Positions 11,377 through 13,788 of a stretch of DNA of 64,000 nt are shown here, in pieces (position 1 is the first letter of the stretch; the number at the start of each line of letters is the position of its first letter). The DNA is from Oscillospiraceae bacterium (lineage in GTDB: Bacteria > Bacillota > Clostridia > Oscillospirales > Oscillospiraceae): positions 1 through 64,000 of the forward strand of contig JAAWDI010000046.1 in the NCBI GenBank assembly GCA_022793685.1, read 5' to 3'. The translations under genes were made by a program, and so were the position numbers. The notes under the pieces are model-generated. The model saw only the letters and a list, made by a program, of their open reading frames with translations. It was not told the DNA's origin and did not search any database.

Positions 11377-13122
11377 TCACATTTTTACCGGAGCGTTGAC
11401 GCCCAAAATTCCAAGGCCCACCGCCAGCACCGCCCGAACAGAGTCGGCCAGCTTCAGCCGCGCTTTCAGCAGAGCGGGCTCCTCGCCTTTGATTCGGTGG
11501 GCGTTGTAGAACCGGTGGAAATCCCCCGCCAACGCCGCCAGATAACGGTTCAGGCGGGACGGGTCTAAATCGCGGGCCGCCAGATGAATTTCTTCCGGCA
11601 GCTGGGAGAGGCATTTCAGCAGAGCGCGCTCCTCACCGCTTTGCAGCAAAGACGCGTCCACCTCCTCCGCCGCGGGCACCGCCTCCCCCTCCTCCTCCAG
11701 CCGAGACAGGAGGGAGCAGATGCGGGCATGGGCATACTGGACATAATACACCGGATTTTCGCTGTCCTGACGCACGGCCAAATCCAAATCGAAGTCCAAC
11801 GGGCTGGTGCTCACCCGCGAGTTGAAGAAATAACGGGCAGCGTCCACACTGATTTCGTCCAGCAGGTCGTGGAGGGCAATGGCCTTGCCGCTGCGCTTGG
11901 ACATCCGCACCGGCTTGCCGTCCTGCATCAGGTTCACCAGCTGCATCAGCACAATGGTCAGACGCTCCGAGCCGTTCAGGCCAAGGCCGTCCAGCGCCGC
12001 CTGTAAGCGCGCCACATGGCCGTGGTGGTCGGCGCCCCAGATATTGATGACTCGGTCAAAGCCCCGCTTTTCAAATTTATTGCGGTGATAGGCAATGTCG
12101 GCGGCAAAGTAGGTATAGAAGCCGTTTTGACGGCGCAGCACGTCGTCCTTCAAATCCAGCTTGTCCACCTGTTCCTGCGTTTTGCCCTCACGCAGATATT
12201 TTTCCTTCAGGAGGGCGGTGGTGTTCAGCCACAGCGCGCCGTCCTTCTCATAGGTCCAACCCTTCTTCGTCAGGAGGGACACCGTTTCCTCCACATAGCC
12301 GCTTTCGTGCAGCTCCGACTCAAAGAACCACTGGTCATACTCGATGCCGTAACGGAGCAGGTCCTCCTTCATCTTCGGCACGTTGACCTTCAGGCCAAAG
12401 GCGCTCATGGCCTCCAGCCACTCCGCCTCCGGCTTGTCCTTGTAGCTGTCACCGTACTGGTCGTAAAACTGTCGGGCCAGCTCCTTGATGTCGTCGCCGT
12501 GATAGCCCTCCTCCGGAAAGGGGAAGTTCTCCTCTCCCACCAGAAGCTGCATATAACGGGCATGAATGGAGTCAGCAAACTTGTGTATCTGGTTGCCCGC
12601 GTCGTTGACGTAGAACTCTTTCCAAGTATCATAGCCGTCCCGCTTCAGCACGTTGGCCAAGGTGTCGCCCAAAACGCCACCGCGGGCGTTGCCCATGTGC
12701 ATGGGGCCGGTGGGGTTGGCGGAGACGAACTCCACCATCACCTTTTCTCCCTTGCCCTCGCTGCTCTCGCCGTACCGGACGCCCTCCGCCTCAATGACGG
12801 ACAGCACTTCGCCATACCATTTATCAGCTAGGCGGAAGTTGAGAAAGCCGGGGCCTGCGGTCTCCGCGGATGCAAAATAGCTGCCCTCCAGCTCCAAATG
12901 GGCGATGATAGCCTCCGCAATGGCGCGGGGAGCCATGTGCAGCGGCTTGGCCGCCGCCATAGCGAAAGAGGACGCATAATCGCCGTTTTTTGCGTCCTTG
13001 GGTATCTCTATCGTGGCACTTACCGTTGCCCCGCCCGAGAGCACGCCCTTCGCCGCCGCCCGCTCATAAGCCTGCTGTGTCAGCTCCTGTACCTGCCGCT
13101 TGGCAGCTTCAATCAAATTCAT
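11377..13122 (-). CDS. argS: Arginyl-tRNA synthetase
   Basis: EFVSANPTGPMHMGNARGGVLGDTLAN HIGH-type motif; MSKRSGKAI. Confidence 0.97.
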   Translation of the reverse strand: MNLIEAAKRQVQELTQQAYERAAAKGVLSGGATVSATIEIPKDAKNGDYASSFAMAAAKPLHMAPRAIAEAIIAHLELEGSYFASAETAGPGFLNFRLADKWYGEVLSVIEAEGVRYGESSEGKGEKVMVEFVSANPTGPMHMGNARGGVLGDTLANVLKRDGYDTWKEFYVNDAGNQIHKFADSIHARYMQLLVGEENFPFPEEGYHGDDIKELARQFYDQYGDSYKDKPEAEWLEAMSAFGLKVNVPKMKEDLLRYGIEYDQWFFESELHESGYVEETVSLLTKKGWTYEKDGALWLNTTALLKEKYLREGKTQEQVDKLDLKDDVLRRQNGFYTYFAADIAYHRNKFEKRGFDRVINIWGADHHGHVARLQAALDGLGLNGSERLTIVLMQLVNLMQDGKPVRMSKRSGKAIALHDLLDEISVDAARYFFNSRVSTSPLDFDLDLAVRQDSENPVYYVQYAHARICSLLSRLEEEGEAVPAAEEVDASLLQSGEERALLKCLSQLPEEIHLAARDLDPSRLNRYLAALAGDFHRFYNAHRIKGEEPALLKARLKLADSVRAVLAVGLGILGVNAPVKM

Positions 13123-13150
13123 GTCCTGTTTCCTGCCCTCTCCTTGGTAT

Positions 13151-13228
13151 TACTGCTTCAACAAGGGCCGCTTCTGCTCCCGCACATGGATGCGGAACAG
13201 GTTCTCCCCCGCTACCGCGTGGTCGATT
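13151..13228 (-). repeat. Partial duplicate of the 3' end of the DUF1934-like gene
   Basis: 73/78 identical by eye to 13346-13423 (offset 195 bp). Confidence 0.9.
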
Positions 13229-13340
13229 GCCCACCGGCTTTTCGCCGCCGGGTTCCCTTCGGTTATTTCAATCCTCGGGCGAACTGAATTCGCCCTCCGG
13301 CAAGGTTTTGCTCCGCAAAACGCTTGAATCGAAATCGACC
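13221..13340. repeat. Palindrome-rich insert between the duplicated segments
   Basis: Hairpins CCGGC/GCCGG, GGGCGAA-CTGAA-TTCGCCC, GTTTTGC-TCC-GCAAAAC inside outer 8-bp inverted repeat GGTCGATT/AATCGACC. Confidence 0.75.
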
Positions 13341-13344
13341 CCGC

Positions 13345-13788
13345 TCACTGCTTAAGCAAAGGCCGCTTCTGCTCCCGCACATGGATGCGGAACAGGTTCT
13401 CCCCCGCTACTGCGTGGTCGATTTCGATGGCATAGTCGATTTCAATATCGCCGCCGCTTTCGCCCATACGGCAATCCATCCGCTTGGTGTTGACGCCCAC
13501 TGAAAGCGCGCCGTAAGGCGTTTCGTACAACGACAGGTGCCGCTTACCCTCTTCAAATACCATCTGGGAGTTGAATTCACCCATGCGCATCAGGGTGACC
13601 TTATCCTCTTCAATTTCCAGCGTGGTGGTGGTGCCGTTTAATCCGGTCAGCTCGCTTTCGGCATAGGAGAGCAGGAAGCCGCCCTCCTGCCGCTTTAACT
13701 GTCCTTCGGTCACAAGCTCAATGGCGTCGTCGCCGGTATCTTCAAAGCATTGCATCCCCCGAATGGAGATAATCACAGCTTTTTCCAC
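13345..13788 (-). CDS. DUF1934-family beta-barrel protein
   Basis: 147 aa MEKAVIISIRGMQCFEDTGDDAIELVTEGQL...; neighbour of argS/murI, a typical DUF1934 context. Confidence 0.8.
   Translation of the reverse strand: MEKAVIISIRGMQCFEDTGDDAIELVTEGQLKRQEGGFLLSYAESELTGLNGTTTTLEIEEDKVTLMRMGEFNSQMVFEEGKRHLSLYETPYGALSVGVNTKRMDCRMGESGGDIEIDYAIEIDHAVAGENLFRIHVREQKRPLLKQ

Follow-up and report, generated by a model that had tools for sequence, protein, structure and literature searches.

Structured repeats of about 120 bp lie within long gene-edge duplications in the Oscillospiraceae

The DNA between a DUF1934 gene and argS in a 64,000-nucleotide stretch from a gut bacterium of the Oscillospiraceae (the whole stretch is called the window below) contains one copy of a structured repeat of ∼120 bp, which we call E. 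It is close to certain that E is a real, recurrent and structured element that is accompanied by long duplications of gene edges, and it is likely to represent a novel type of mobile repeat at gene edges. Members of the E family are located at gene edges in the Oscillospiraceae and, as more distant forms, in further families of its order. The explanation that we prefer, with slightly better than even confidence, is that a copy of a gene end (X), a short arm and E arrive as one unit, and that the gene end of the recipient is left stranded on the far side (X′), where it would serve as a portable homology arm.

On the minus strand of the window, DUF1934 is followed by a 118-bp insert (13229-13346), by X′ and then by argS. 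The locus has the following features.

13345..13788, minus strand: DUF1934 gene, intact (open reading frame; Pfam PF09148, E-value 8.2e-39)
13347..13423, minus strand: X, the in-gene copy, comprising the last 77 bp of the DUF1934 gene (direct repeat)
13152..13228, minus strand: X′, the second gene-end copy, apparently stranded and located between E and argS (direct repeat)
13412..13428, minus strand: L/X junction, the presumed target site, ATCGA/AATCGACCACGC (inverted repeat; homologous position in 84 loci)
13328..13344, minus strand: arm, GCGGGGTCGATTTCGAT, an inverted copy of the L/X junction and the left end of E (16/17 complementary)
13301..13326, minus strand: hairpin H1, CAAGCGTTTTGC-GGA-GCAAAACCTTG (conserved core, compensatory changes)
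13277..13295, minus strand: hairpin H2, GGGCGAATTCAGTTCGCCC (compensatory changes, per pair in as many as 12 of 34 copies)
13230..13257, minus strand: hairpin H3, a locus-specific stem and the right end of E (consensus structure; same-locus versus between-locus identity)
13227..13345, minus strand: entire E by covariance model R1 (93.6 bits, E-value 8.4e-21; the score is not independent, this copy being one of the 34 E copies from which R1 was built)
13217..13228, minus strand: start of X′, able to close a stem with the arm (MFE structure of 13215-13350)
11377..13122, minus strand: argS, the downstream gene (Pfam arginyl-tRNA synthetase domains), which directly follows DUF1934 in relatives

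An earlier sequence-only reading had described the end of DUF1934 as duplicated upstream of argS, and its coordinates were right: X and X′ form a direct repeat with a spacing of 195, in which 73 of 77 positions are identical, or 73 of 78 if the next base is counted. All four differences within the 77 bp are synonymous (GCA/GCG, CCT/CCC, CTT/TTG), and a fifth difference exchanges one stop codon for another (TGA/TAA). The same reading had placed three hairpins between the copies, in agreement with a predicted fold of 13215-13350 on the minus strand (-59.6 kcal/mol, z -3.9), and had reported an inverted copy of a stretch within the gene, which we find to match at 16 of 17 positions.

From 5′ to 3′, E loci are laid out as L / X / spacer of 0-35 nt / arm / H0 / H1 / H2 / H3 / 0-4 nt / X′ / R. 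The window copy is composed of the arm, H1, H2 and H3 and is devoid of H0. The consensus of H1 reads CAAGCGTTTTGC..GCAAAACCTTG, that of H2 (G)GGCGAATTCACTTCGCC, and the latter is followed by GAGGAT..aaat and by H3 (GGGGYCCCC...GGGG). The right end of E is nearly fixed (H3 plus 0-4 nt), and the left end is variable. RNAalifold predicted 30 pairs in E, 16 of which have at least one double compensatory change. Compensatory changes are present in hairpins H1 to H3, and for one pair located next to H1, 17 copies have C-G and 13 have G-C. We compared these sequences with Rfam and found no family at the gathering score in the window, nothing at an E-value ≤1 for 13100-13500, and no convincing match across the element at six other E loci. 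Likewise, no description of such an element was found in the open-access literature, subscription papers and preprints being outside the scope of this search.

We searched the host genome for additional copies, as the sequence-only reading had proposed, and R1 identified nine copies there in total. This genome is a metagenome-assembled genome (MAG) of 73% completeness in 69 contigs, and the single representative of its genus in our comparison set; three sister species contain 12-29 copies. Several copies in the host genome are found at contig ends (G000:C59, C47, C43 and C53; loci L003, L004, L005 and L293, respectively), and the repeat thus probably breaks assemblies, with the consequence that its copy number is underestimated. 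In a DNA search, the E core was present in 44 of 201 genomes of the family, representing 31 of 106 genera. A pattern scan of named genomes returned >119 E stretches, and Flavonifractor, Oscillibacter, Pseudoflavonifractor, Dysosmobacter, Intestinimonas and unnamed Oscillospiraceae or Clostridia are among its matches. A distant form of E in another family of the same order retains the layout of H2 and H3 and has a different H1; it reaches ∼70 copies per 1.9-Mb genome, for example in genomes G228 and G042. In G228, G042, G244 and G283 (L386-L405), this form is often located near other palindromes and mostly has no long duplications, and these four genomes are a good hunting ground for an autonomous partner of E. 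Only one contig of the viral collection matched the H1 pattern exactly (IMGVR_UViG_3300010163_000993, L223), close to one end of its 8.8 kb. This contig also holds a second core match, for which no duplication was detected.

We assessed flanking duplications in those 157 of 194 unique E copies for which full flanks were available. Direct repeats of 31-138 bp, which are 76-100% identical, flank 128 of them (82%), and the same test was positive at 4 of 384 random placements in the same loci (Fisher p 2e-89). Of the two possibilities raised by the sequence-only reading, a palindromic repeat that inserted along with a long duplication is right. The other, a single template-switch or foldback event, is at odds with our finding that insert, duplication and inverted copy recur at dozens of different loci and across dozens of species, a recurrence that argues for an element with repeatable behavior. 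An assembly artefact was rejected because X and X′ differ in sequence and because the arrangement is also present in independent assemblies, including complete genomes.

The duplicated piece usually corresponds to the end of a gene (same strand) or to the start of one (either strand), and one complete gene remains. As the duplication spans the edge of the gene, the neighboring gene stays whole. Duplicated ends include those of lepA, DUF1934 and a pduL-like gene; duplicated starts are those of hisZ-, truB- and gidA-like genes, and specificity for gene 3′ ends was therefore discarded. The right duplicate usually starts ∼40 nt past the E core. The insertion sites form 62 clusters; in the biggest, unrelated loci are chained together artificially. 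We also found tandem arrays of the type (X E)n X, for example X-E-X-E-X, indicating that recombination between X and X′ does happen. No duplication was detectable for ∼18% of the E copies, many of which adjoin terminators or tRNAs. In the distant relatives G228 and G042, only a few of the examined copies are duplicated at their flanks, and duplication is thus not universal to the fold. At the lepA 3′ end of two other genomes (L256 in G088 and L259 in G151), ∼30 bp are duplicated around quite different hairpin DNA with no E core; the habit of duplicating gene ends may extend to other repeat families, or E may have decayed there. A third lepA 3′ end (L237 in G177) has kept X and X′, with the E core between them replaced by other sequence, and is a decayed or swapped element.

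We next consider the differences between X and X′ in relation to the reading frame. Over 65 loci, these differences fall on codon positions 1, 2 and 3 in 34, 17 and 152 cases, respectively, and 145 of 182 differing codons (80%) are synonymous. The third-position share is 75%, compared with ∼46% expected for a freely drifting X′, a value that we estimated assuming equal divergence of the copies and full neutrality of X′ (P about 2e-16, the loci not all being independent). This third-position and synonymous bias implies that X′ was coding until recently or has been repeatedly re-exposed to selection, and it rules out a simple target duplication followed by neutral decay of X′. The pattern bears on a SINE-like retroelement, in which a folded RNA would be reverse-transcribed at an L/X nick by an enzyme acting in trans, a second nick 30-140 bp away giving rise to the long duplication. 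A near-fixed right end, a variable left end and long duplications of variable length are indeed as in target-primed reverse transcription, and the arm could position the RNA. We nevertheless regard such a retroelement as quite unlikely, since equal copies at insertion and neutral decay of X′ conflict with the codon pattern, and since RVT_1 is found in 18 of 44 E-positive versus 43 of 157 E-negative genomes (p 0.10) and was detected neither in the E-rich, near-complete genomes G178, G180 and G183 nor in the host MAG.

An empty site in relatives, another check proposed in the sequence-only reading, was found: where the insert is missing, DUF1934 and argS are directly adjacent, and there is no duplication. 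At lepA, G205 carries E; in its genus sisters, G022 and G141, the gene end is present once, and the terminator after it is of the same type as the one located beyond X′ in G205. A joined-flank query revealed additional precise empty sites in this trio. We used such sites to compare the two copies, choosing true empty sites by the identity of their R flank. For four 3′-type loci (L280, L299, L309 and L326) and seven comparisons with empty sisters, summed by hand, identity to the sisters is 93.5% for L, 88.6% for X′ and 84.0% for X, and in none of the 7 comparisons at the 4 loci is X closer to the empty sisters than X′. As judged from these few loci, the outer copy thus appears to be the native one and the in-gene copy the newcomer. 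Some X copies are nearly identical to X′, for example at lepA of G180, which counts against an incoming X.

The arm, which lies in the stretch from X to the core, is complementary to the L/X junction with a score ≥9 at 56 of 84 clean loci, compared with 15 of 331 control positions. Its mean score is 10.5 against its own target and 5.8 against the permuted targets of other loci. Arms typically span about -5 to +8 around the L/X point, and those at lepA track species-specific differences of their target; approximately one-third of E copies have no clear arm. An inverted copy, a direct copy and a short filler between X and the arm are features that templated repair synthesis typically leaves. They could be produced by host template switching or fork reversal, if hairpins stall synthesis and the 3′ end slips back, copies L/X first inverted and then direct, and captures E from a different locus. 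This appears unlikely to us, as the arm repeatedly covers the same interval around the same point, as an identical E, with an identical right end, would be needed in each event, and as E is locus-faithful over species. Template switching is possible as the founding step of a new locus. Snap-back priming through microhomology at the end of X was considered as well, and no such microhomology was seen in a few loci inspected by eye.

At nine loci common to sister species, E copies have an identity of 0.92 in the core and of 0.85 in H3, compared with 0.71 and 0.61, respectively, for copies at different loci of one genome; the latter values equal those between genomes. High identity at the same locus and low identity between loci together indicate that E rarely jumps to new loci and persists at old ones. 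Recent bursts of transposition within a genome are not supported, given that copies at different loci resemble each other no more within a genome than between genomes, and no de novo insertion of E was seen. Direct repeats of 30-140 bp are expected to be easily lost through recombination, and the persistence of E thus calls either for loss and regain or for selection. In the latter case, E would be a 3′-UTR or intercistronic RNA element that is kept for mRNA stability or regulation, and the duplications would be relics of allelic recombination. Strong compensatory evolution and long persistence at the same loci are consistent with a selected RNA, as are the location of E between the lepA stop codon and the native terminator in G205 and that of the window copy inside a gene pair. 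It is, however, a doubtful explanation: the orientation of E relative to the gene is not fixed, sisters manage without E, and the match of the arm to L is left unexplained.

In our preferred explanation, E would not travel alone. The arriving unit would consist of the gene-end copy X, the arm and E, and would be placed at L/X, with the arm pairing with the target across the junction. Here, X would restore the reading frame, and the gene end of the recipient would be stranded as X′. X′ could then act as a portable right-hand homology arm and L-X as the left-hand one, such that recombination between X and X′ may remove E, and homologous recombination may restore it from a relative even when the intergenic DNA is unrelated. 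It is our guess that new loci are founded by arm-guided, target-primed synthesis on a folded RNA or single-stranded DNA. Taken together, this suggests that a small element can reach the edges of essential genes without breaking genes, by a way not previously known. A more far-reaching version, which we put forward tentatively and consider improbable, is that E is a self-homing element guided by RNA or single-stranded DNA. The arm would be a ∼12-nt guide to L/X, the start of X′ a primer-binding site and the replacement gene end a cargo, and E would install itself beside conserved genes, spread between species at the same locus and be repeatedly lost and regained.

As reverse transcriptase families and Y1 transposases are inconsistently present in genomes with E, we do not name an enzyme. 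A REP/BIME-like repeat moved by a Y1 transposase (IS200/IS605-type, RAYT-like) would be in line with the palindromic nature of E, its location at gene edges and its high copy number, and Y1_Tnp is found in 24 of 44 E-positive and 59 of 157 E-negative genomes. We consider this very unlikely, as this enrichment is slight (p 0.06), Y1 is missing from E-carrying genomes, near-complete ones among them (none was detected in G141, G178, G096 or G111), no GTAG head was apparent on reading the alignment by eye, and IS200/IS605 transposition is not accompanied by larger target duplications (PMC2817692).

A very small element that is non-coding, resides in long gene-edge duplications and has an outer copy still evolving in a coding-like manner points to a mode of spread without a named mechanism. 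This mode would explain how small repeats settle harmlessly beside essential genes (lepA, argS, hisZ-like, aspS-like), and E provides a natural substrate for studying recombination-driven loss and gain in gut commensals. If the arm is a guide, E would add a natural targeted-insertion system. For genome annotation, partial gene copies of this kind should be read as footprints of an element rather than as assembly errors.

We compared E with known systems. To our knowledge, target duplications of known bacterial mobile repeats are short or absent. In at least one feature that was tested, E departs from each of the following: MITEs, REP/RAYT repeats, SINE-like elements, integrative elements of gene ends and Rfam families. 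Like REP/BIME-RAYT repeats, E copies are short, palindromic, multi-copy gene-edge repeats with conserved stems that are often clustered. In contrast to these repeats, which have a single palindrome with a GTAG-type head, E has several stems (H0-H3), an arm copied from the target, flanking duplications of 31-138 bp and no consistent Y1 partner. MITEs are likewise small, non-coding and multi-copy, and share with E precise empty sites and a duplicated target. E differs from them in being GC-rich, in having no fixed terminal inverted repeats, in a left arm that matches its own target rather than the element or other loci, and in duplications much longer than a few bp. No parent transposon was found for it either, and no transposase gene was noticed between E parts in an unsystematic inspection. 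With SINE/LINE target-primed reverse transcription, E shares a structured, RNA-like unit, a fixed right end, a variable left end and long variable duplications. Unlike eukaryotic SINEs and LINEs, E is bacterial, its in-gene copy appears to originate from a foreign allele, and it is not associated with a reverse transcriptase, which is absent from many E-carrying near-complete genomes. E differs from integrative elements of gene 3′ ends in that it measures ∼120 bp, is non-coding, has no integrase and uses many target genes, including gene starts. In these elements, as proposed for E, the incoming copy restores the gene end and the old end comes to lie on the far side; tandem arrays are formed in both.
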